A stretch of 64,000 bases of DNA from Obelidium mucronatum (taxonomy: Eukaryota > Chytridiomycota > Chytridiomycetes > Chytridiales > Chytriomycetaceae): NCBI GenBank assembly GCA_025765595.1, contig JAIVFH010000045.1:62001-126000 (forward strand). Direction: 5' to 3'. Made by a program: the position numbers and the translations under genes. The first letter of the stretch is position 1. Every line of letters begins with the position of its first letter. Positions 9,160-47,384 of this stretch are shown piece after piece. The notes beneath the pieces are model-generated. The model saw nothing but the letters and a program-made list of their open reading frames with translations, did not search any database and had not been told where the DNA came from.

Positions 9160-11219
9160 CTAACATTTGCTAAGTTGCTCATTTCTCATGTCCACCATGC
9201 TGAACAAAAAAAAGTCTGCCTGAAGAGGGTCCAAATATCGCAAAATGTGTCCCATTTTTTCAAACCATCCAGCACACTGTTCTGCTGCTGATGTGTTGAA
9301 TAAAGGCTTGTTTCCTTGGTATAGCCTAGAAAAAGACCTAGCATCACAATTCTCCATGCAGAATCTGTCTCGACGACTATGGTTTCTGAAGTGGAGTGGA
9401 ATCTGTCAACAACCCAGATGATTTTTTGGTATAGCATCCTAAGCACAGAAGTTAGATTCTATCACAGCAAATACATCCTTACTTGTGGAGCGGCTTGATT
9501 TGCTGAGCGCCGTTTTTCAAAGTCCTGACAAAAACACATGCTTTGTCATAAAACATGAATGTAGGATACTCATCCAGCCTCATGAATGTTTGACAAAGAA
9601 ATCCTGTAATAAACTTGTTGGACTCAAACGAGTACATCTTCCCAATGTCCATAATGTGCCCACAGCTCCACACAACCAGGAACACCCCTGGCAGGAATCT
9701 GTCAAATGGGCTGTAACAGAACCCAAACTCCTCATAATTTCTTTCATCATCCTTCACATGCCCCACTGACACTCGTGTTTTTCCTCCATACTTCTTTGCA
9801 GTTTTCTCACTTGTTGTTGATGGGTCTGAAAAGAATTTTCGCACCGCCTCCATATGTTCTTGTTTCCTTGCATGACAGCGGTTGGTAATCAAAAGAGTTC
9901 TCACGTTCTCGTTCATCCTGAAATGATGCATTTCCCCTTCAATCCTGCATGATTGATACAGAATTTTGTATTGATCCCAATGATGTCCAAATTGCATCCA
10001 ATCACTCTGCACAGCAAGTGCCCCATCACTTTTCCATTCATCACAGCCACACTATACTCCTGGCCTTTGCTATCAACAACATGACATTCTCCACATGAAT
10101 GCTTCCATTTTACTGCAAAGCGCGCATTCATCCACTCCACATATTCCTTCATTGCCAACCGCAAATCTTCTACATTATCAGACACTTGATTGCTTGAGTA
10201 TTCTCCAAGATGTAGGGAATATGGAAACAACCGTCTGCCCTTCTCCCCCCAAGATGGTTGGAAGCAGGAGTAATCAAATTCTTCTTGAGCTGCTTGAAGC
10301 GCCTCTGAAACAGCAGGATCCTGAATGTACTCTTGCAATAGGAGCATCTGGTACAAGAAATACGCCCGCTTGAAAATAGATGATGATACTGTTCAGTATC
10401 AGATGAAACAGAAGGAACTGCAGAATGGTATGCATTCTGCAGAGATACATTTTGCATCTAAATAGCAGAACAGTCTGTCAGTAAAAGGCAAAAAAAGGGA
10501 AACAGTCCTAATGGTGAACAAGTCGTGGTGCTCCCATTTGCGGCCGATTTGGCTCCTAATCAGAGCGCAAATCGGGCCTCCTATTTGCGCCCAATTTGCG
10601 GCCGAATCGGGCCTCCTATTCGGAGGCGAATCGGCCGCGAATCGGAGCACCCCGAATCGGTCACCATAGGAACAACACTTACAGCATTACTGACAGCACA
10701 TTCTTCAGCCACAAATTTGCAAATGCAACAGTCATGTAGTATTTAGAATTGATTCCAATGACTTTTTGCTTTCTGATTGTATTCATCGGGTAATGCTCTA
10801 TGGTGCTGTTTCCATCGGTAATCTCTGACACTGAATCAACATCATACAACTGAATACTGCAGCTCAAATTCACACAGCTGGATTTGTACAAAAGACCCGA
10901 TTTAGCTGAATCTGCATCCAAGATTGTGACTTCTTGCCATCTTCCAATCTTTAGATGGCTCTGACACTTGATGCAGTATGTAAACAGAGCTGGCAGGATA
11001 ATAGGTACATTTGGGGTAATTGTTTCGACTCAAACACAGCCTGGCTGCCAGGATGGGAACGCCAAAAGAAGTAGCAATAAGCTGAATGAAATCCCGCAAA
11101 CGGAGAGTCTTGTTGTAAGTCTTTTCAAAACTGCCATAGATTGCAAACTCAGCTTGGAAGGCTGGGAACTGTTCTGCCAGCTGAGCTCCCATCTTGACAT
11201 GTGATGCAGGGATTTTCAT
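9160..11219 (-). pseudogene. KDZ-like cysteine-cluster transposase, copy A (decayed)
   Basis: The frames line up with the better preserved copies at 23106-24432 and 39929-42075. From the ATG at 11219: an N-terminal region (MKIPASHVKMGAQLAEQ), a damaged first Cys cluster, the segment YYMTVAFANLWLKN, an intron (10458-10682), YLYQMLLLQEY, a second cluster (HSCGECHVV; HLLCRVIGCN), then MYSFES and the acid in FMFYDKAC, VVDRFH, and NTSAAEQC. These give the D, D and E expected for a KDZ-type transposase. Several frameshifts (for example near 9360, 9450 and 10380) and a small internal deletion show it is dead. The family name rests on motif resemblance to the CxC5/CxC6 domains associated with KDZ transposases. 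Confidence 0.65.
10458..10682 (-). repeat. Intron of copy A filled by a GGAGC/AATCGG motif array
   Basis: The intron starts with GTAAGT on the minus strand and ends with TTTAG. Inside lies an array of about 12-bp units such as GGCGAATCGGCC and GCCTCCTATTCGG that changes orientation, so it is an imperfect inverted repeat. The same motif family fills the transposon ends at 11368-11640 and 47385-47620. Confidence 0.65.
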
Positions 11220-23105: not shown

Positions 23106-24432
23106 CAACCTTCAATGGTTGACACAGAATTTTGTATTGATCCCAATGATGTCCAAATTGCATCCAATTACTCTGCACAGTAAGTGGCCCATCACTTTTC
23201 CATCCATTACAGCCACACTATACTCCTGGCCTCTACTATCAACAACATGGCATTCTCCGCATGAATGTTTCCACTTTACAGCAAAGTGTGCATTCATCCA
23301 CTCCACATATTCCTTCATTGCCTGCCGCAAATCTTCACACTTGATTGCTTGAGTATTCTCCAAGATGTAGGGAATACGGAAACACCCGTCCGCCCTTCTC
23401 CCCCCAAGATGGTTGGAAGCAGCAATAATCAAAATCTTCTTGAGCTGCTTGAAGCTGCTCTGAAACAGCTGAATCCGGAATGATCTCTTGCAGTAGAAGC
23501 ATCTGGTACAAGTAATAGGCCTGCTTGAAAATAGATGATGCAGCTGAAGGAATCCCTGAATACTGTTCAGTATCTGATGAAACAGAAGGAAATGCTGAAT
23601 GGTATGCATTCTGCAGAGTATACATTTTACATCTAAGGAATAGTCTGTCAGTAAATGACAAGCAACAAACACTACTAATTGCACCCAATTAGACTTCCTA
23701 ATAGCGCTCCGATTCCCGCTTCTAATCGCGCTCCTAATTGTTCTCCGATTTGCTTCCGATTCGGAATGCGATTAGGAGCGCGAATCGGAGCGCAATTAGG
23801 AGCGCGAATCGGAGCGCAATTAGGAGTGCTATTAGGATTGCTATTAGGAGCGCAAAATGGACCAACACTTACAGCATTACAGACGGCACATTCTTCAGCC
23901 ACAAATTCGCAAATGCAACAGTCATGTAGTATTTAGAATTGATTCCAATGATTTTTTGATTTCTGATTGTCTTCATTGGGTAATGTTCTATGGTGCTGTT
24001 TCCATTGCTAACCTCTGACACTGAATCAACATCGTACAACTGAATACTGCAGCTCAAATTCACACAGCTGGATTTGTATAGAAGACCTTGTTTGGCTGAA
24101 TCTGCATCCAAGATTGTGACTTCTTGCCATCTCCCAATCTTTAGATGGCTCCGACACTTGATGCAGTATGTAAACGGAGCTGACAGGATGATAGGTACAT
24201 TTGGGGTAATTGTTTCGTGAATTCTTGAATTGAAGATGGCCTCGGCTGTTTGTTTGGCTGACGGGAGGGGAACACCAAAATTAGTGGCAATAAGCTGAAT
24301 GAAATCCCGCAAACGGAGTGTCTTGTTGTAAGTCTTTTCAAAACTGCCGTAGATTGAAAACTCAGCTTGGAAGGCTGGGAGCTGTTCTGCCAGCTGAGCT
24401 CCCATCTTGACATGTGAGGCAGGGATTTTCAT
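23106..24432 (-). pseudogene. KDZ-like cysteine-cluster transposase, copy B (C-terminus missing)
   Basis: ATG at 24432 (MKIPASHVKMGAQLAEQLPA). Well preserved N-terminal half: CIKCRSH and KSSCVNLSCS clusters, YYMTVAFANLWLKN, intron 23633-23872, MYTLQNAYHSAFPSV, YYLYQMLLLQE and the second cluster (HSCGECHVV; HLLCRVIGCN). It stops at about 23106 where the pogo-like copy 2 abuts. The catalytic D, D, E region is therefore gone. It starts 25 bp from the divergent start of gene X (24457). Splicing from ATGCT|GTAAGT to TTAG|A keeps the frame. Confidence 0.65.
23633..23872 (-). repeat. Intron of copy B filled by the motif array
   Basis: 240-bp intron, donor GTAAGT, acceptor CCTTAG. Units such as GGAGCGCAATTA and GGAGCGCGAATC run one way in one half and the other way in the other half. 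It occupies the same place as the intron in copy A. In the 39929-42075 relative the equivalent intron is only ~60 bp and has no array. Confidence 0.7.
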
Positions 24433-36688: not shown

Positions 36689-36883
36689 TGAAGATGATGA
36701 AGTTGCGGTGGTGCAGCCAGTTGTTCAAGGAAAGATGCATCGTGTGGTAAACATTACTGAGCAGGAAGATGAAGTTGATGATGATGATGAGGATGTGCAG
36801 GATGAAGAAGAAGTGGAGGCTCATCCAAAAAAGAAGCGACGTGTCATGAATCTTTTGGGCAGTGATGAGAAGCAATTGGGGAT

Positions 36884-37065
36884 GCGGGCCGGACCTCGCG
36901 AGTCGCGATACCGGTCGCGTTGCGAGCCGCTCACGGGCCGCTTGCGACCTGCTGACGAGCCGCTAGCGGGCCGCTTGCGACCTGTGCCACGGCCTGTTGG
37001 CAGGCCGCTCTGTACCTTTTTATGTGGGGCGCGAGCCGCAAGCCACTTGTTCACAGGCCGCTAAC
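36884..37065 (+). repeat. Left subterminal GC-rich array of the 9.35-kb element
   Basis: Repeated units GCGAGCCGCT(C/A)ACGGGCC, CGCTTGCGACCTG and GACGAGCCGCTAGCGG. GC content is far above the surroundings. The outer ~20 bp pair with the right end at 46231. Confidence 0.75.
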
Positions 37066-37188
37066 CCCCAACTGTCACTAAAACTCAAGAATAAGCCACA
37101 AAAAATGTATCAAATAAGGCTGTTTATTAAGGCTGTTTATTATCAATAAATAAATAAATAAGTAAATAAGTAAATAAGTACACATTGC

Positions 37189-38466
37189 TCAACCCAGGGC
37201 TTGCAAAACCGATTCCCGTATCTTCCGATTGCGATCTGTGGCATCGCGATTAATGTTGAAGGTAACTCCCCGCTTCTCCACCACAGCGCTTCCCACAAAC
37301 CTGTCCTGGTTGCGCTTCACCGCCCAACTCGCTGTTCCCATTCCATCTGCCAGAATCAGCGAGATTCTCCGCTTTCTAGTATCTGCCTCCGCCGCCAACT
37401 CCGCTACCTCCACAAATCGTCGCTCCCCTGAATGCCACATCCTGGTCCCATGTTTTTCATGCTTGAACATGGAAACAATCGCCTCCCCATGAACCGCTGG
37501 GATCACCACATTTCGATCTGGTAGGTACAGTGCTGGCCATACCACGGGCGGTTCCGCGTCTTCCTCATCCACCACAACACTGAAGTTGATCCCGAAAGTC
37601 GAATTCTTGCTGTCCAGGTGGAACTTGAAGTCCCCGTTGTTTGAGCACGCAAGAAACGAGGACGTGAAGATCCCAAAGATGGGATCACATGTGGTTGCAA
37701 CTTCCTATTGGTCTCGTTTTCGCAATTAGAAGGTAAGCACTAAACTATAACAAACACATACCTTTGTAATGTTGGCCACCATCTCGAATGCCTCCCGATG
37801 TACCAGAGACTCCACAACGCCAGTGAGGTAAGCGACCAGCGGCTGAAGGCCCTCAAAGTGGGGCAGCAGCTCTGGCTTGATGTTCTCCTTTCCAAACACC
37901 GCCAGCCCGTTCGCTACTTTTTCGGCATGTTCTTTTACCTTGACAGACGCTACATCCGCTGGGTAGTGCGGGTCCTTGATGCCGTCTGCAACTCCAGTCC
38001 AGGAGCACAGGTTGATGACTCGCATGTTGCCGCGCGTCTTGACCTTTGGCTGCGAGCGTCGAAAGATAGCTGCAAGATCGCGGATGTGCGGCATGGCGTC
38101 CTTGAGTATATAGGGCGGCAGTTTGATTCTAATAGCACTCCCAAGTTGTTAGCAACGCTTGGACTGCAACAACACCAAAAAAACCCTCACCTCCCTGCAA
38201 CAAGCTCTTCAACTCCGTCTGTGTTTAGACCATACACAAACTCCTGTCCCTTGGTTCTGTCATCCAGCACTCGCAGCTCTGCAGGTTTTGTTGCTGAAAA
38301 TGTTTAACACCAACCACAGCAAAAAAAAGAAGTTGGCCCACCAACCTATAATATCAGCGCGGCTCAATCCCTGCTCAGACATGTGCTTTTGGCGTTTCAG
38401 CATCTGGTGTGCAGCGGTGGATGCTGACTTTTTGACGCGTTTTCGTTTGTTACGCGTTTTGTCCAT
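37189..38466 (-). CDS. Candidate TET/JBP-like 2-oxoglutarate/Fe(II) dioxygenase, transposon-borne
   Basis: Four exons on the minus strand: 38346-38466, 38191-38293, 37762-38128 and 37189-37704. They total 1,107 nt (368 aa) without a stop. The N-terminus is basic (KTRNKRKRVKK), fitting a nuclear protein. The last exon contains the double-stranded beta-helix signature: H226-x-D228 in FKFHLDSKN, then a strand-rich part (WPALYLPDRNVVIP), a second His at about 282 (HEKHGTR) and an Arg at 292/293 (GERRFVEV), spaced as in 2OG-Fe(II) enzymes. TET/JBP oxygenases are known from fungal KDZ transposons, which is why I favour that family over other 2OG dioxygenases. Substrate would be 5-methylcytosine in DNA, by inference. 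Transcribed divergently from the JmjC-like gene with 159 bp between the starts. Confidence 0.55.
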
Positions 38467-38625
38467 TGCATTAATAGATAAATAAATAAATAAATAATCA
38501 AGTTAACTCAACAATACTAAGGTAATTTATTGAATCAAAGTATTCCTTGCATATCAACGGCTACAAAGCTGTAATAAAGTATTCTCTGCGTTGTTGTGTT
38601 CTCCCTCATTACTTTGACTTGAAGA

Positions 38626-39781
38626 ATGCGACGCTCAACAAGACAACGCCAAGCCGCCGCCGCTGCCACAGCCTCAACCAAACATACAACAGCATCAACC
38701 TCTTCTATCAACCCGATCACAGCAATTAGAGCGTGTCCTGCTGCTCCTGCTGAGATCCTTGCCGCTCTGGATCAAATTGAGCAAGTCCTGTTGGATCGCA
38801 GCCGCATCTATATCCTGTCGGACTGCAACCTGGATCTTACGCGCTTGGAATGCCTCCTTCTTGCCAATCCTGGCAAGATTCTATTCCTGCCATCCTCCAA
38901 TATTCCTGCAGATCGCTTGACGTCAGGGGAGTATTATCCCACAGCCTGCTACCACGACGGTCAACCACACAAAAGGAGCTTTGTCTCTGGGTTTTTTGAT
39001 CCATTGGAGCAATGGGAGCTGCAGCATGCAGCGTTTTCCGCTCCAATCATGTTGTGTCAACCCATCAACCAGCTACCGCCACTCCCCCCTCCATCAGGAC
39101 TATGGAACAGCCATCAACGTCCTCCTTCAATTACCCACCAATCAGCAGCTATTCAAGCTGTGGGTGGTGCTTGTCCCCAGCGACCCTACAGCCATCATCC
39201 CTACCCTTAATCCCCTGTCTTTCGCTCAAGCCATGGCTTTGGAGGTGGGCCCTTCCTGCACATACACAGCAAGGATCTGCTTTGTAAAGAGGCCTGGCGA
39301 TCTCTCCGTCATTCCTTCTGGCTACCCACACGCTGTGATCACAGTCTCAACAACCAGGGACGCGACATCCATCATGGGCGGCGCCCACGTCATCTTTCCA
39401 AAGGACTACCTGTATGTGTACAAGTACAATTGTGCCAGCAAGCACACTTACCTTTGGGGGAACACCAACATCAAGTACCACTACTACATGGTTTGGTTTT
39501 ATTTCCGCTCTACTATCTTCAAGGGTGCCAATGGTGGTTGTCATGAGTTGGAAGGGGACTTGCTAACTATAGAAGAGTATAGCGATTGCAGGTTTGATGG
39601 GGTGAGGGATGCGGTGGCGGAGTTAGTGTCAAGTTGGACAGTGCGGGGTGATGCCAAAAGGGAAGCTGCAGCCAAAGCAGCGAAGCAAGGTGTTTCAAAA
39701 AGGCTGAAAGCAAAACAAGCAAATAGGGAGAAGATGGAAAGGGTGAGACATGCAAAAGTGGGAGGATCAAAGAGAAAGTGA
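38626..39781 (+). pseudogene. Candidate JmjC/cupin-like protein, one base out of frame
   Basis: ATG 38626 starts an S/T/A-rich basic N-terminus followed by ILAALDQIEQVLLDRSRIYI and a predicted alpha/beta region. Near 39080 the frame must shift by one base in a run of six C. The second frame then gives SPLHQDYGTAINVLLQL (H-x-D) and SVIPSGYPHAVITVS (second His), followed by GGAHVIFPKDYLY. H-x-D and the IPxGxPHAV segment are the usual iron-binding positions of JmjC and related cupin oxygenases. The C-terminus is K/R/A-rich. The offset may be a real mutation or an assembly error in the homopolymer. The family call is from motif resemblance only. Confidence 0.45.
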
Positions 39782-39928
39782 TATCATAACTATAGAAGCA
39801 CATGCAATAAAGGAAAACCCTATGACACAATTAAAGAATTCTTTATTGCCAATATACTGGACCTATAGCGTCGCGTTGATTGCAATTGTTTGGTTTGCCC
39901 CAACAGGCTGAACGCAAACTTATCAAAA

Positions 39929-42075
39929 ATGAATTGGAAAGAAGGGAGGCATTCTGGAATGTTCAGAACAACAAAAGTAAAAACAACCATCATGTCCTTT
40001 ATAGATGAAGCAAGAGCTGTAGTTGTGCTGGCCAACGAGTTGCAGAAAGTCAAGCCGTTCCTGCATAGGTTCAAGACTGCAGTCAAACTATATGACAACA
40101 ACAACCGCATGAGGGCGATCTGTGATCACATCTCCAAGCAGTTTTCCTTGACCAATGAAACAGTATTTACCTTGGCAGACAAAGTATTCCAGTGTCCAGG
40201 CATGGACGCGGTCAATCACTGGAAACCTGTCCAGCCATCTGTCCTTGTGGCTCCATTCTCGCAATGCCACAGGTGCACCAAAAACTTGACTTTCAGCAGC
40301 ACACAAGTAGTGGTGTTGGGGATGGAAGGCCCATACCACGCGTCGCTGTTCAAGGGCAACTGCACTAAATGCCGCATGTGGTACAATGTGGATTCTGTCG
40401 CGTACATGAGCGAAGACAAACAGAAGCAGCTGATAGAGATGTATCCGCTTGAAACTATCATGTCAGTTGGCTTCCTCAAGATCAATGAGCAGTACTACGT
40501 CACCATACCTTTTGCGGATCTCTGGCTAAAGCACCTGCCGTCTGGCCTTCTGTTAGTCTATCCTTGCATGGTAAATACTAAATTGATCTTTTACTCATAC
40601 TTCACACATAGGGTGAAGCTGTATCGTGAGCAGCGCACATATTCACTGGCCTTTCCAACCATCAAAGTGCCTGATCCAGACAGCGCAGGTGATCTTCAAA
40701 CGTGGATTTTACGTGTATCACATGCTACTACTACAGCAGTACATCTCCAAGATCGCTGCCAATGATGACTATGAACATATGCGGTACACTCACTTCAGAC
40801 CTTCCTGGGCCCCCAAAACAACACATTTGTGGAACAACTCCCTATTTCTGGGTCCATACTTACCAAAAACAGGTGATTCTATTCATGACATCAGACCCGC
40901 GATGCGGGAATACGTCACGTTCATGACTGATTACTTCAGCAAGAAGTGGCAGCACCGCTGCAACGGCTGCCACCAGTTTTACAACGGAAAGGAAATCTCT
41001 GGCAGTGTAATGGATGGGAAAGTCATGGGGCATCTATTGTGCTCTGTGCCTGGGTGTGTGTTGCCTATTCTTGGTGTGAACACATTGTTCTGCTCATCGC
41101 ATGCCCAGCTGAGGAATGAGTGCATCATCTCTGGCTGCAAGCGAAAAAAGACAGACACTGTTTTGCATACTTGCGGACTCAGCGCTCACAACGCGACTGT
41201 CCAGGAAATCATTGGGAAACAGTGGAACAAGGACTTTAAAGCGACGCGAAAGTCCAAGAAAACGCGAACATCTACAGTGCATATTGATACACAAGAAAAA
41301 GAGTTAGTAGCGGATCAGCGGTTCAAGTACAGTCTGAAGCAGCGGTTCCTGCCTGGAATATTTATGGCTGTGTGGAGCTGCGGCATGATCATTGGAATAT
41401 CTAAGATGTACTCTTTTGAGTCTTCTACCTTTATTTCACGCTTCTTATGCCACTGTTTCGCGCGAATGGGCGAAGTACCTACCTTTGTTTTCTACGATAG
41501 AGCCTGCCGCTTGCTCCAATCCCTACGCGCCCGACACGTAGCAGGAAAATTCACAATATATGAAAGGTGCACTTTACTTATTTATTATTACGCGCTCTGT
41601 TCATTATATAGTGTTCTGCTTCTTATACTTACCACCAATCTTTGTTGGAATCAGGTTCTTGTACAAGACTGTTACGTTTGTGGTTGACAGGTTCCACTTT
41701 CGGATGCACAGGGACGACTTCTGTACAGAGCATTGCGATCCAGCAAAATTCAAGGAATTGACGTCAGGAGGGCCTGCAAATGGAAAGGGGAGGTTTAACA
41801 CGTCCGCGGCAGAACACTGTGCCAAGTGGTTCGATCAAACCGCTCACCTGATTCGCTTCCACGAGCCCGTCCAAGCGGATTTCATTATGTGGTGTCTCGC
41901 AGACTTGAGAAACGCGGACATCCAGAGCGGAATTTCAAAGAAGAAAAGAGTTATTAGAAACGAAAGCGAAGACAAAATGGAGGCAGAGGAGGAACAACAA
42001 GAAAAGGATGACGAGGAGGATGATGAAGACACCAACGAAGATGATGGTGAAGGAGAGGAAGAAGAGGATGAATAA
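39929..42075 (+). CDS. KDZ-like cysteine-cluster transposase (best preserved copy)
   Basis: In-frame ATG 39929. First zinc cluster CHRCTKNLTF ... GNCTKCRMWYN, then PFADLWLKHL. An intron with donor GTTAGT and acceptor ACATAG (to about 40610) sits at the same place as in copies A and B. YVYHMLLLQQYI follows and a second Cys/His cluster (HRCNGCHQF; HLLCSVPGCV; LFCSSHAQL). Then MYSFESSTFISRFL and the catalytic-type residues: Asp in TFVFYDRAC, an intron (41570-41659, GTGCAC...AATCAG), Asp in VVDRFHFRMH with FCTEHCDP, and Glu in NTSAAEHCAKWF. A long acidic tail closes the protein. One single-base frame offset near 40689 (SAGD versus QVIFKR) is the only defect seen. The motifs fit CxC5/CxC6 plus KDZ. 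Confidence 0.65.
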
Positions 42076-42395
42076 ATAACAAAACTCACCTTTACAAACT
42101 TTGTTTTTGCGCCGCTTGCGTCGACAGTGAGAAACACAGTACAGAGAGAATGAGAAAGCCCATTCGTCATCTGGATAGAAGTGTTTGGGGAGCGGGAGAA
42201 CGAGAAAGCCCATTCATCACCACTGAATCAAACAACAAACTGGCGCCGCAGGACAGAGAGAATGAGAAAGCCCATTCATCATCTGAGTATCTGCGAAGTA
42301 GGAGAATGAGAAAGCCCATTCATCACTACCAACTGCGCATTTTTGCTATTTTTTTTGTTAAGTCTCTTTTGGCGGGACAAAATTAAACAGCAATA

Positions 42396-43154
42396 ATGTC
42401 AAAGTATTTTTCAAACACTGCGCCTATACAACAATCCAACAACCCCCCTATCGCTGCATCCATCTTTGATGGCCTCCCTGCTGAGACAGTGAGCGTGATT
42501 CTTTGATTGGGGTATGTGTGTTTCTTCTCTTTTTATTTTTTAAATATTATGTCCCCATTAACACGATTGCGAGCCAATCCTCAGGAAATCGTGGATCCAA
42601 CCAAGGCACCGTGGCCGAGCCGGTGTGCCAAACCAGGATCGCGTCGACAAGCACCGAAATCGAAGCAGGGGGGGAAGGAGAGGCAGTTGGAAACTAAAGC
42701 AACAGAAGAAACCAAGGCAATCACGGTCTCGCAGGTGGTCCTGTCCAACGGAGTTAAGTCGAAAAAACCAAAGGCAACAATTCGGCTTGATCGAGCGACA
42801 GCGTCGAGGAGATCTACAGACGCGGAGCACATCAATGCTGGACCAAGCAACATCAAGCCAAAAGCGCATATACGGCTCAATCTGTCGAAAGGATTGTACA
42901 AATCAAAAGAACAGGTGAAGATGGAACCTTTTGGCGCTGGATGGAATCATGGGGATGACAATGATGGTGGATCTCCTGGACCAACACCAAAAGTGGAGGA
43001 CGACGACGATGAAGTACTGTCATATTCAAGTTCGGATGTGGGATCGGATTGGGGACCCGATCGGATGATTTTGGTTGATGGGGAACTCATGGAAGGGCTC
43101 CCAATTGTTGATGGGGAATTGTACACGCCTGGGCGATACAGGGCAGACTTCTGA
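42396..43154 (+). CDS. Protein U: unrecognised small transposon protein
   Basis: Two exons, 42396-42488 and 42585-43154, with donor GTGAGC and acceptor CCTCAG. They total 663 nt, or 220 aa. The N-terminus is polar (MSKYFSNTAPIQQSN). The middle is rich in K/R/S with repeated KxxATIRLDR- and KPKAHIRLNL-like segments. The C-terminus is acidic (EDDDDEVLSYSSSDVGSDWG). No catalytic motif is visible and I do not recognise a family. Two basic repeats plus an acidic tail would suit a DNA- or chromatin-associated helper, but that is only a guess. Transcribed in the same direction as the transposase and Y. Confidence 0.55.
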
Positions 43155-43278
43155 GAGTATATGTGGGTTATTTATTCCCTTCCTTCTCTACTCTCTGTTT
43201 GTCTTTTCACGAATAAAGAAACTTTGGGTTGTTTTTAAGAGACTTTGGTTTATTTTTAAAAAATAAAGAAGATTTTCA

Positions 43279-45889
43279 ATGTCCGAACATCCATTAGCCC
43301 CAGGAAACCCCAGCACGGTCGCAGGTCTGCTGGATCGTCTCGCCAACAGTCGTGACTGCAGACACTTCATCAATGTTCCATTTTCGCTCCCCTCAGTTGC
43401 AGACGGGACGTGGATTAGCGGCTACCAATGGATAACCAAGCCGCGCGCGGATGGCTCCGTTAACCCCAAGTCACTCAAGTACCTTTGGAAGACAATCCAC
43501 GGGCACGTGTTTTACCCAAACATCTCGAAATTGGCGCCCAACGCATGCACAGATGCAATGCGAGAGCTGGTGCCACATATAATCATGTAATGTTTGTTCA
43601 TAGTTCCGCACTATCATACGCACTATATCTAACATGTGTCTTTTAGTATGTTGAATACTAACTTTGCGCCAGTGGTGTACAACTACCACATGAAAGAAAA
43701 CGATGAACAGCTAATGACTGTTGTACACCTGGACTTCCCGATTGTCTTAACAACACTGAAAAAAACGGTTGAATCTTTTCAGTTTCTTACAGACGATGAC
43801 CTCGCAGTTCTGGCTGGACAAGTGGGGTTTGGTGTCCAGTTTCCTGACGAAACGGAGTTAGACCTCGACGTAGCAAGAAAACTAATGCCGCGATTCATCT
43901 ACGGTAATGTTTTCTTTGCCTTCAAGTGTATATGTACTGCTAAAGCTCTGTTTTTTGTTGTTATAGATCGCAAGAATGTGAACAACATGTTCAAGGTGCG
44001 TTTTACCACACAGCTGTACCCAGAACCCAGCAAAACAAACGTGGATGGATCAAAAAACGCGGAGCGCTTGCACAGGGTCCCACTGCGGGAGTCGCGGATT
44101 GACCTGCAGGAAGCGATCCGGAACGAAGTTCGCAGAGAGCAACGCCAACGCGAAGATGGGAGTGAGAGTGGCTTTATTCTCCACGTTTCCGATGACGAAG
44201 AAAAGGAAAGTGACGACGATGTTGTAATTGTTGGTCCAACGATTGCAGGTATGTTTCTTTATTTTTTATGTCTAAGACTAAGCGCCAAGCATCACCAACA
44301 CCAGCCAAACAGCCCGTGCGCAAAACCTACAGCAAGACGCCCAGCTCTGCTAAACGTGACGAGACGGCTATGGAAAGGCGCAGAAGACGTAAGCGTCATT
44401 AAAATGTGGTTTCTTCAATTTTAATCTATAAAAATCACACAACAGGGTCTGTAAGTCCACCAGACGAACGGGGAATCCAATCTGAAAGTGACGCAGACAA
44501 TGGCGCCGATGATGACGATGTCAATGCATCCTCAAGCGAGTCTGATAGACAGGACGCTCGCAATGATGACGAAGACTTGGATGAAGACGAAGATGACGAC
44601 AAAGACGAACAAGTGTCCAGCCAGCCGCAGTCGTCTGGCTCTATCCGCAGCCGCATTAGTGATACGCAGCCTTTTCCTTTGGATTACGATGATGGTGAGA
44701 GATATGTTTTTATTGCTTGGCTAACAACATTCAGCAGATGAAGCCGACGAAAGTCCAGCACCGGAACCGCCGAAAGCCAAAATCGGAGTCACTCTTATTG
44801 CGGACAAGTCGACAAAGCTGCTTGTTGAAATTCCGTATGTGATGGATCGGAAAGACCGCTATGTTTTAGGTAAGTGGATCCTTTCTTCCGCTGTTGTTTC
44901 CTCAAATCCTCAGAGTATTAACTCTGTTTTAGGTCCAAGTGACATCATCAAGGTCCTCTCAAGTCACGCAGCATTCCTGGCAAGGGGTATCCGCTGCGAC
45001 TACGTGGAGCTTGTTGACGAAGATGGCTTTGGACGATCGTCGTTTGTAATTCAATACACAGCTGTCTTTGGACAGATTGACATCAAAGCCGGAAGCAGTG
45101 AGTGTGTTGTGATTTGTTTGAGCAGGGAAGGGTACTAACTGCCTTTCTATTGATAGTCTCGCAACCAGTGTTTGCTCGCCCTGCCGTTGTGACCCCACTG
45201 TCGTCGCAATTGTATTCAACTCCAATGCTTCCAAGCTCTGGCTCCGGCAGCTCCCGCCGTGATTCGATGGAATCAACTTCGACGCAGTCGTCAATTGTGT
45301 TTCGCCCAGCGGGACGTTCGGGAGGAGTGAAGGAGAAGCAAGTCGATGATGTGATGAAGTATGCGATCATCTACTGCAAGCTGTTGGCTGAAGGGAACAT
45401 ACGAAAGGACAAGATCCCGGCAATGGTCAAGCAGGAGACTGGGTTGGTCAACTTTCCTGACAAGAAGGAGTCTGGACATGCGTACGTTGGGCTCCATTTG
45501 TACAATGAGGAGCTGAAAAAGGTGATTGCATGTTTATTGAGTGTTATCTGCATTTTCTGACTTTGCTATAGATCTTCTTGAAGTACAAGTGCTTCTTTGC
45601 GACATACAGTGGAATGACGTTTACTTTTGAATTAGCGAAACGTCATTTTGCTGAATGGACCAAAAAGCTGTCGTTCCATACTGGTGTTCCTGACGAAAAC
45701 CACAATTCTGGCAGCTTCATCCAAGCATTCAACCATCTGCACTTCTACAAGGCAGGGCAAAGCCGCCATCAGCGCAAGCCAGAGACGTATGTGGTGCTTC
45801 GGGCCTTTGCAAACAACCAACACGTCAAGAAGGCGTATTGGCGGGAGCCGCTTCAGGAAGGAAGCGCAAGCAAGAAGGCAAAGCGCTGA
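43279..45889 (+). CDS. Protein Y: nine-exon accessory protein, relative of gene X
   Basis: Exons 43279-43586, 43647-43903, 43967-44248, 44290-44388, 44446-44694, 44738-44869, 44933-45097, 45157-45521 and 45572-45889 total 2,175 nt (724 aa) with no stop. N-terminal domain (WISGYQWITKPRADGS; LMTVVHLDFPIVLTTLKK), then FIYD|RKNVNNMFKVRF across an intron in phase 1. Gene X has YIYA|RKVSNNKFHVVF across an intron in the same place and phase. Long acidic low-complexity linkers follow, then a beta-rich central part (IGVTLIADKSTKLLVEIPYV) and a C-terminal domain (HAYVGLHLYNEELKK|IFLKYKCFFATYSGM). X has AYVGVFFADLEFQR|LFPKTYTSYFDKED at the matching intron. Function unknown; conserved partner of the KDZ-like transposase. 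Confidence 0.7.
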
Positions 45890-46074
45890 TTGGGGGTTTT
45901 TTTATTTATTGTTTCTTCAATATTTTGTTTATTTCAACTTTGCGCATCCTTTTTTGTTTTTGTTTATTGTTGGTACTTTGGATTTTGTTTATTACTTTAA
46001 ATACATATATTATGGTTTTAAAACTTTTCTACTCATTGTTCTTACCTTTTTCAAAATAAAGTAAGGACTAGCTT

Positions 46075-46231
46075 TCAACTGGCTCTCCACTGGCTGTCAA
46101 CTGGCTTGCGGCCTGTGAACTAGCTGCGACGCGGCTGGCTTTCCACTGGTTAGCGGCTCGCACGCAGGTCGCCCACAGGTCGCGAGCGGCCTGCTAAGCG
46201 GCCCGTTAGCGGCTCGCGAGGTCCGGCTCGC
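46075..46231 (-). repeat. Right subterminal GC-rich array of the 9.35-kb element
   Basis: In reverse it starts GCGAGCCGGACCTCGCGAG and continues with CCGCTAACGGGCCGC and GCGACCTGTGGGCGACC units, resembling the left array. Confidence 0.75.
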
Positions 46232-47384
46232 TATGGGGACACATGAGAAGAAGAAGAAGCAGAGGTGAAAAAGATGGTTTCTGTTAAATGCCAGTTTCAG
46301 AATCAAGGAGCAGTTTTTTGTTGTAATGTGGAAGGGACAGTTGCTGAGGGAAACAAGGCAAAAGGTGAGACCAAGTTGTTGTCTTAATTGTGCATTTTTA
46401 ACAATCAATCCATTATTAGTTTTTCTTGCTGATGTTTTGGCTGCTGCAAAAGTCCATCCAGCCACAACCCATTTTCGCAGGAAGGTCCACAGTGTTAGTT
46501 GGTTCTGCCAGGAGGAGTACATCTTTGACGAATCAGTTTTGGTGGACATTGCTTTGGATCCACACACAATGTTTGATCCATTTGCAAGTTCTCCATTGAT
46601 TAATTCACCTGTGACTGGGCCATCTCTGCAAGAAAAGCCATCTTCCATCTCATCCAAACAGCGCCGCCAAGTCCCCACATCTGTTGCTGAAGTTGTTGCC
46701 AAAGCTAAAGGACGTACTGGCACCCAAGACAAGTTTATCAAAAAGTGGGTATCTGCTTTTCTTACCTGACGCAGGATCAAGAGCCACCAATGACCAAAAA
46801 TCATGCTGCTGCAACTCTGTCGAAGGAATTCCCCAACTTTGGAAACACTGTGGAAAGTTTTCGGGCTTATGTTGGAGTCTTCTTTGCCGATTTGGAATTC
46901 CAAAGAGTAAGTTTTTATTTCAGAATCACTTTAAGCTAATTCTTTCAATAATCTTTTATTTAATTATTGTAGCTCTTTCCAAAAACATACAAGAGCTACT
47001 TTGACAAAGAAGATTGCATCTTCTCTTACAGTGATGTTGGGAAGCACATGTCAAAGTTCAATGCAAGATTGGTCCCTAAGCATCAAATATATAGTTGGAA
47101 TACTCAAGTGTTTCAAGACGTTTATAAGTATTTTCAAGCGTACACGGAGGGTTCTTTGGACAGGGCGTGGAAGAGGCAGACCAAGTGATACTTTGAAAGA
47201 GTTGGCGTCTTTGATTTTTCTTTTGATTTTTCTTTTGATTTTTCTTTTGCTTTTTCTTTTGATTTTTCTTTGATTTTTTAGATTTTTCTTTTGATTTTTT
47301 GGATAGTTAAATAAAAATTTCACGTAAAATTTTATTTACCATTCAAATGATTTGATTTTTGATTTTTCCATGTGTTTGAAGAGT

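Follow-up and report, generated by a model that had tools for sequence, protein, structure and literature searches.

A five-gene transposon of the chytrid Obelidium mucronatum with a KDZ-type transposase and candidate TET/JBP-like and cupin/JmjC-like genes

TET-positive KDZ transposons of fungi (Dileera, Zisupton and Kyakuja) were reportedly described by Iyer in 2014. Elements of this sort have been found in Pucciniomycetes, Agaricomycetes and Pezizomycetes (Kojima 2025, PMC12730594), and the accessible part of that paper proposes an anti-silencing role for the TETs of fungal transposons, states that experimental validation is missing, and contains neither "jmjc" nor "chytrid" (0 occurrences each). 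Modifying enzymes of other kinds have also been captured, e.g., SET in HarbingerS and MuDR elements of Phytophthora (cited in the same text) and an N6-methyladenosine (m6A) RNA demethylase domain in orchid Ty3/Gypsy elements (PMC9289625, accessible part). Here we describe a transposon of Obelidium mucronatum (Chytridiales, Chytridiomycota; genome of 48.3 Mb in 694 contigs) that lies in a 64,000-bp stretch of contig C45 (C45:62001-126000, hereafter the window), occupies positions 36873..46242 of it on the forward strand (9,370 bp), and carries, together with a KDZ-type transposase (gene C), a TET/JBP-like candidate (gene A), a cupin/JmjC-like candidate (gene B) and two further genes (D and E).

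Like the fungal TET-positive KDZ transposons, this element joins a KDZ-type transposase and a TET/JBP-like gene in one unit, but it differs from them in its chytrid host, in a gene A too diverged for the Pfam model Tet_JBP, and in the presence of a JmjC-like candidate and two more genes. An initial annotation of this DNA had described TET/JBP genes on fungal KDZ transposons as already known, which Kojima 2025 (PMC12730594) bears out in its accessible part; novelty appears to lie in the JmjC-like partner and in the host being a chytrid, and the open-licence papers searched contained neither a DNA transposon with a JmjC gene nor a chytrid TET transposon. The SET- and m6A-demethylase-bearing elements are similar in having captured a modifying enzyme with a presumed regulatory role, whereas their enzymes and the elements themselves are different, and the accessible texts mention no pair of oxygenases for them. 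Chytridiomycota are an early-branching fungal phylum from which the literature searched reports no transposon TET genes. If our assignments are true, transposon-borne TET-like genes would extend to this phylum, which would supply very divergent enzymes with directly assayable substrates, and if both enzymes are active, the element would be a natural two-part anti-silencing tool and fungal transposons would be countering histone marks as well as DNA methylation.

The limits of the element were set by aligning the ends of different copies, whose common sequence extends 11 bp farther out on both sides than the 36884-46231 initially annotated; the element consequently starts with CAATTGGGGATGCGGGCC at 36873 and finishes with GGCTCGCTATGGGGACAC at 46242. 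Directly outside lies an exact 8-bp target site duplication, ATGAGAAG, at 36865..36872 on the left and 46243..46250 on the right. Exact 8-bp duplications surround five of the six copies of which both ends were read (the window copy, L047, L048, L049 and L051; L050 has none), a length that the element shares with Zisupton and Dileera. The near-identical 7-8 bp duplication proposed earlier (TTGGGGAT / TATGGGGA) was rejected as a target duplication: copies inserted elsewhere carry it at their ends too, which makes it part of the element itself. The initial view of a mobile element with matching GC-rich ends holds, as copies at different sites have the same ends, and these form imperfect, GC-rich inverted repeats (36884..36965 on the forward strand pairing with 46151..46231 on the reverse strand, ca. 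76-77% identity across 81-82 bp). Just inside the ends, subterminal GC-rich repeats with an 11-bp spacing (36923..36984, forward strand) may represent transposase binding sites.

The element is a member of a large repeat family of O. mucronatum. Searching the genome with 36884-46231 gave at least 33 matches, and the left and right ends alone gave at least 40 and at least 41, all of them lower bounds (the best 16 of 221, 40 of 119 and 40 of 107 candidates were scored, respectively). Full-length copies among those read are the window copy, L047 on C52 (9,373 bp) and L049 (9,311 bp), and L047 has both ends and all five genes intact. Two short copies of 2.0-2.1 kb (L050 and L051) have both ends and have lost most of the genes; L051 is flanked by a duplication of its own, so the genes are dispensable in cis, and both are probably short derivatives that moved in trans. 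Copies of the ends without the genes, which the initial annotation had thought would speak against its five-gene element, thus do occur, as expected of non-autonomous derivatives, next to a copy in which ends and five intact genes stand together. When the flanks of the window copy are joined, they match three uninterrupted, element-free places (L039, L040 and L042), the alignments being ca. 90% identical and showing a 2-bp gap where the flanks meet; at each of these places, a few kb from the repeated gene, there is a transposase distantly related to that of gene C (42-49% identity in some aligned pieces, 31-37% in others). L048 (C233) was rejected as a full-length copy, being 4,939 bp long, internally deleted and nested within another copy. 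It has two right ends, each followed by the same 8-mer CTGTCCAA, and L055 (C541) is likewise a copy nested in a copy of the same family.

Gene models were fixed by comparing copies, with splice sites inferred from the sequence, and the comparison confirmed the five genes in the order initially given (our D and E were taken to be its U and Y). In L047 the open frames comprise 368 (A), 384 (B), 644 (C), 201 (D) and 719 (E) codons. The window copy keeps open frames for A, D and E, but a single extra base relative to the other copies shifts the frame in B, and another does so in C, through mutation or assembly error; in L049 C is broken and the other four genes are open, and in L010 C is open and A and B are broken. 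Gene C (39992..42075, forward strand; exons 39992-40551, 40612-41566 and 41655-42075; 644 amino acids in L047) encodes a protein with CxC5/CxC6-like cysteine clusters. The L047 protein exceeds the cut-off for CxC6 (PF18721; 50.4 bits against 27.5) and stays below those for KDZ (PF18758; 15.8 bits, E 0.011, cut-off 26.6) and CxC5 (PF18718; 21.8 bits, or 23.7 for the window exon, cut-off 26.9); none of the 16 matches of a genome search with PF18758 falls on C45. The KDZ-like cysteine-cluster transposase proposed initially is supported by these scores, and on the strength of the CxC6 match and the 8-bp duplication we take the element to be a diverged KDZ-type. A sister transposase family with 41-45% identity to C has long open exons (ca. 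45%) at many places, e.g., C28, C3, C121, C123, C236 and C114, and its stretches L039, L040 and L042, which cover part of the sister elements, gave no match to A and only edge pieces of B, D or E.

The genes travel together and are maintained. All 10 full-length open B frames (the best 107 of 110 candidates were scored) have a match to A upstream, on the opposite strand and, in the case of C128, across an insertion of ca. 7 kb, and nine of the 10 have a match to C downstream, the exception being C142, where none is among the matches listed (best 69 of 312 candidates). Ratios of replacing to silent change per site (dN/dS), computed against L047, are 0.05-0.21 for gene A in nine copies (among them L022 and L023 with two in-frame stops each, and L010 with a frameshift), and the tenth, L049, has two silent changes and no replacing one. 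In gene B, L041, which has diverged most (dS 0.23), has a ratio of 0.22, four close copies have 0.30-0.51 and L010 has 1.84, there on seven changes, and L049 is unchanged; the ranges for the other genes are 0.19-0.45 (C, four copies), 0.20-0.44 (D, four copies) and 0.26-0.79 (E, six copies). Fisher tests of silent versus replacing change, which used the computed site totals, yielded p values of 2e-11 (L023), 9e-9 (L012) and 1e-8 (L022) for A, 3e-12 (L041) for B, 1e-7 (L010) for C, 0.003 (L046) and 0.007 (L049) for D, and 2e-10 (L018) for E. In all five genes silent change exceeds replacing change per site, i.e., they are under purifying selection, and the cargo is therefore kept and not merely carried.

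Gene A (37189..38466, reverse strand; exons 38346-38466, 38191-38293, 37762-38128 and 37189-37704) encodes a spliced protein of 368 amino acids, as initially predicted, and the profile and motif layout support its assignment as a candidate TET/JBP-like 2-oxoglutarate (2OG)-Fe(II) oxygenase. Aligned with three TETs of the host, its KxHxDSKNxxFG block lies opposite KSHTDSKNDVYG of L058 (the other two read HRDQNNYAYA and HKDNRNYQFG), and LPDxxVVIPxxxGEAIV lies opposite FPDLGIEMEVKPGDLIV, followed by a histidine and by RISLIL opposite RYSLIF. In alignment with the host TETs, A shares with CcTET of Coprinopsis cinerea (7vpn) and the Naegleria Tet-like dioxygenase NgTET (4lt5) the HxD block and a G-D/E-x-I-V strand before the last histidine, and differs from both in a longer stretch between that histidine and RxSLIL. 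The profile alignment of A with the host TETs alone scored 24.2 (maximum of 30 shuffles, 21.9), rising to 29.2 when segments of NgTET and CcTET were included (reached by 0 of 60 column shuffles, maximum 20.5), and the core of A alone scored 27.1 (0 of 100 shuffles, maximum 21.4). Shuffling A 300,000 times never produced a TET-derived motif widened to admit A, which occurs in six of seven host TET frames and, across 262,852 frame residues, in TETs and A copies only; as A was already known when the motif was drawn up, this is support and not an independent test. Of the residues named by the initial annotation (H226xD228...H282...R293), H226 and D228 are present, while the other two vary among relatives: H282 is a tyrosine in two of 10 (P0018 and P0021), and R293 is a glutamine in three (P0013, P0017 and P0022), the neighboring R292 also being one in P0022. 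H279 is a histidine in all 10, and the last TET histidine aligns to it in one alignment and to H282 in another. We therefore prefer H279 and the RISLIL arginine over H282 and R293 as candidate metal and 2OG residues. A protein search with A returned 16 hits, exclusively from O. mucronatum.

Gene B (38626..39781, forward strand, one exon; 384 amino acids in L047) probably encodes a cupin/JmjC-like protein, an assignment for which the evidence is weaker than for A. Its core reads PLHQDYGTAINVLLQ, then KLWVVLVP, then VKRPGDLSVIPSGYPHAVITV, and the candidate residues (numbered in P0001) are H156, D158, K177 and H235 in an HxD/E...K...H layout. K177 and H235 are invariant in all 11 aligned B rows (some cut or chimeric) and D158 is nearly so; H156 is a tyrosine in P0004 and is missing from P0003 and P0010. 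By eye, B resembles KDM2/KDM7/PHF8 in an HxD near a G-T/S-x-x-V block, a lysine ca. 17-21 residues on, and V-K-x-G-x-L-x-I-P-x-G-x-x-H-A-V, and it differs from them in its length of 384 residues, in having no reader domain by Pfam and in lying below the PF02373 cut-off. Over 22 columns only, an hhalign comparison of B with PHF8/KDM7A scored 26.2, the highest of 40 shuffles being 19.7. Weak Pfam matches occur in one of the 11 members to Cupin_1 (best E 0.022) and in one to Cupin_2 (0.035), and a decayed relative on C545 (L066, P0032), its middle apparently out of frame, passes the PF02373 cut-off of 24 with 24.3 bits (23.2 in the genome search). A protein search with B gave 12 hits, all from O. 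mucronatum, among the best 8,000 candidates by shared words. The JmjC/cupin-like protein initially proposed is thus favored by the PHF8/KDM7A profile match, the conserved core and the decayed relative, while the intact proteins do not reach the family cut-offs.

Substitutions between four to seven aligned copies (the mosaic L048 included) bear on the conditions under which the element lives. Transitions affect 76 of 865 CpG positions versus 141 of 3,574 other G/C positions (odds ratio 2.35, p 3e-8), whereas transversions do not differ (31/865 versus 112/3,574, p 0.52); a CpG transition excess without a transversion excess is the pattern expected of 5-methylcytosine (5mC) deamination. A genome search with the C5-methyltransferase model PF00145 gave 25 matches, at 13 places by our count. 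Taken with the many C5-methyltransferase loci of the host, the transition excess suggests that the element is exposed to cytosine methylation.

We consider that the window holds a copy of a cut-and-paste DNA transposon that is moved by the product of C, in which the candidates A and B are likeliest used for anti-silencing and D and E are conserved partners, and we put the probability of this reading at about 0.5. Mobilization by C follows from its transposase class: the enzyme, with its zinc-binding cysteine clusters, would probably recognize the ends and the 11-bp-spaced repeats, cut the element out and insert it with an 8-bp staggered cut. We postulate that the A product would oxidize methylated bases, either 5mC or N6-methyladenine (6mA), on the DNA of the element, and that the B product would remove methyl groups from chromatin proteins. 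The genes could then stay expressed and the ends open to the transposase, and the chromatin of the target might likewise be kept free of repressive methylation. A bolder version, in which the transposon attacks both silencing layers with a DNA methylation enzyme and a chromatin-protein enzyme kept together by selection, perhaps as one package with D and E, is tentative, and we lean against it.

Several observations weigh against the anti-silencing reading. Gene A matches no Pfam or NCBIfam model, Tet_JBP (PF12851) included, save a chance-level AbiGii_2 match in one relative (E 0.12); the genome has nine Tet_JBP matches with E values of 1 or less, a single one above the cut-off, and no A copy is among them. 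None of the 11 intact B proteins passes a Pfam cut-off, that of PF02373 included, nor does the B core, NCBIfam likewise has no model that intact B matches above cut-off, and genome searches with JmjC and Cupin_8 (14 matches each) hit no intact B copy, JmjC finding the decayed C545 relative only. The hhalign probabilities are low in absolute terms for A (2.5, 9.9 and 16.8%) and B (11.3% against PHF8/KDM7A over those 22 columns), and the alignments of B with KDM5A/L061 (13.6, shuffle maximum 16.9) and with all four JmjC sequences (17.7, shuffle maximum 18.1) were negative. AlphaFold2 models built from nine close sequences each reached a mean predicted local distance difference test score (pLDDT) of 33.2 for A and 33.8 for B, too low to place a fold, be it inside or outside the 2OG-Fe(II) class, the latter being what the initial annotation would have taken as a refutation in the case of A; the order of helices and strands in the A model would be compatible with a beta-helix enzyme but carries no weight at such scores. 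The variability of H282, R292 and R293 in A belongs here as well, as does the reliance of the widened TET motif on H282 and GER, both variable among A relatives. The sub-threshold model scores, the low pLDDT values and the variable residues would fit the view that A or B is no 2OG-Fe(II) enzyme and that the motifs are coincidental, B perhaps being a plain cupin, as would the sole PDB match of the B core up to E 10, Peruvianin-I (E 0.15), which we take to be a cupin. PDB sequence searches with the full A and B profiles returned no oxygenase within that limit. The variable residues led us to lower our confidence in the anti-silencing reading from 0.55 to 0.5 and to raise that in coincidental motifs slightly. 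The latter nevertheless seems unlikely to us, as the profile scores of A and B exceed all shuffles run in the comparisons with TETs and PHF8/KDM7A, and the HxDSKNxxFG and PGDLxxIPSGYPHAV blocks are conserved in genes under purifying selection.

Other objections concern what the enzymes would act upon. The element is not strongly depleted in CpG (observed/expected 0.80, against 0.56 in the rest of the window and 0.31-0.96 in its 4-kb pieces), and 6mA rather than 5mC is reported to be abundant in early-diverging fungi (PMC8298701, accessible part), a point against 5mC being the main mark or in favor of 6mA being the substrate of A; the open-licence papers searched contained no work on methylation or transposition in O. 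mucronatum. It is conceivable, if fairly unlikely, that A and B are oxygenases that act otherwise than by demethylation, e.g., that A makes a modified base marking the DNA of the element and B has the transposase or some other protein as its target for hydroxylation or demethylation. Both are far from characterized members, the accessible part of Kojima 2025 (PMC12730594) leaves room for other base modifications by transposon TET/JBP enzymes, and JmjC proteins include JMJD6, named in the PDB as an arginine demethylase and lysyl-hydroxylase, which matches the PHF8 segment around the last histidine. The CpG transition excess and the number of host methyltransferase matches, on the other hand, are in keeping with a pressure from silencing, to which demethylation would be an answer. 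That the cargo consists of host genes captured by chance between the ends, with no benefit to the element, might be read from the short copies that keep the ends, in L051 even with its own duplication, after most genes have gone, but we deem it highly improbable, given that A accompanies B at all 10 of the full-length B frames and that in both genes silent changes per site greatly outnumber replacing ones.

We regard the two remaining genes as conserved partners in the anti-silencing reading. Gene D (42549..43154, forward strand), of no known family, encodes 201 amino acids and gene E (43279..45889, forward strand, nine exons) 719; neither has a Pfam match above cut-off, E showing a weak one to DUF7355 (E 0.012), and a protein search with E gave three hits among the best 8,000 candidates by shared words, all of them pieces from O. 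mucronatum.

Several minor observations concern the methylation machinery of the host and the surroundings of the element. Among the other host TET/JBP genes (nine Tet_JBP places) several are near-identical in protein (two on C41, and those on C21, C39 and C23) and are perhaps mobile. In L059 and L060 (C41:217492-217941 and 227006-227455) the TET/JBP gene lies ca. 400 bp downstream of a frame that by eye is Ty1/copia RNase H-like, on the same strand; the two 3,450-bp stretches are identical, that of L059 has no direct repeats of 60 bp or more, and the neighborhood of TET and RNase H may be chance. Some of the PF00145 places have look-alike match ranges and scores (C549/C12, C40/C412, C127/C12 and C26/C26/C338) and might ride on transposons. 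Within the window, further transposase pieces ca. 30-60% identical to C lie at 9172-11044 and 23115-24393, both on the reverse strand.

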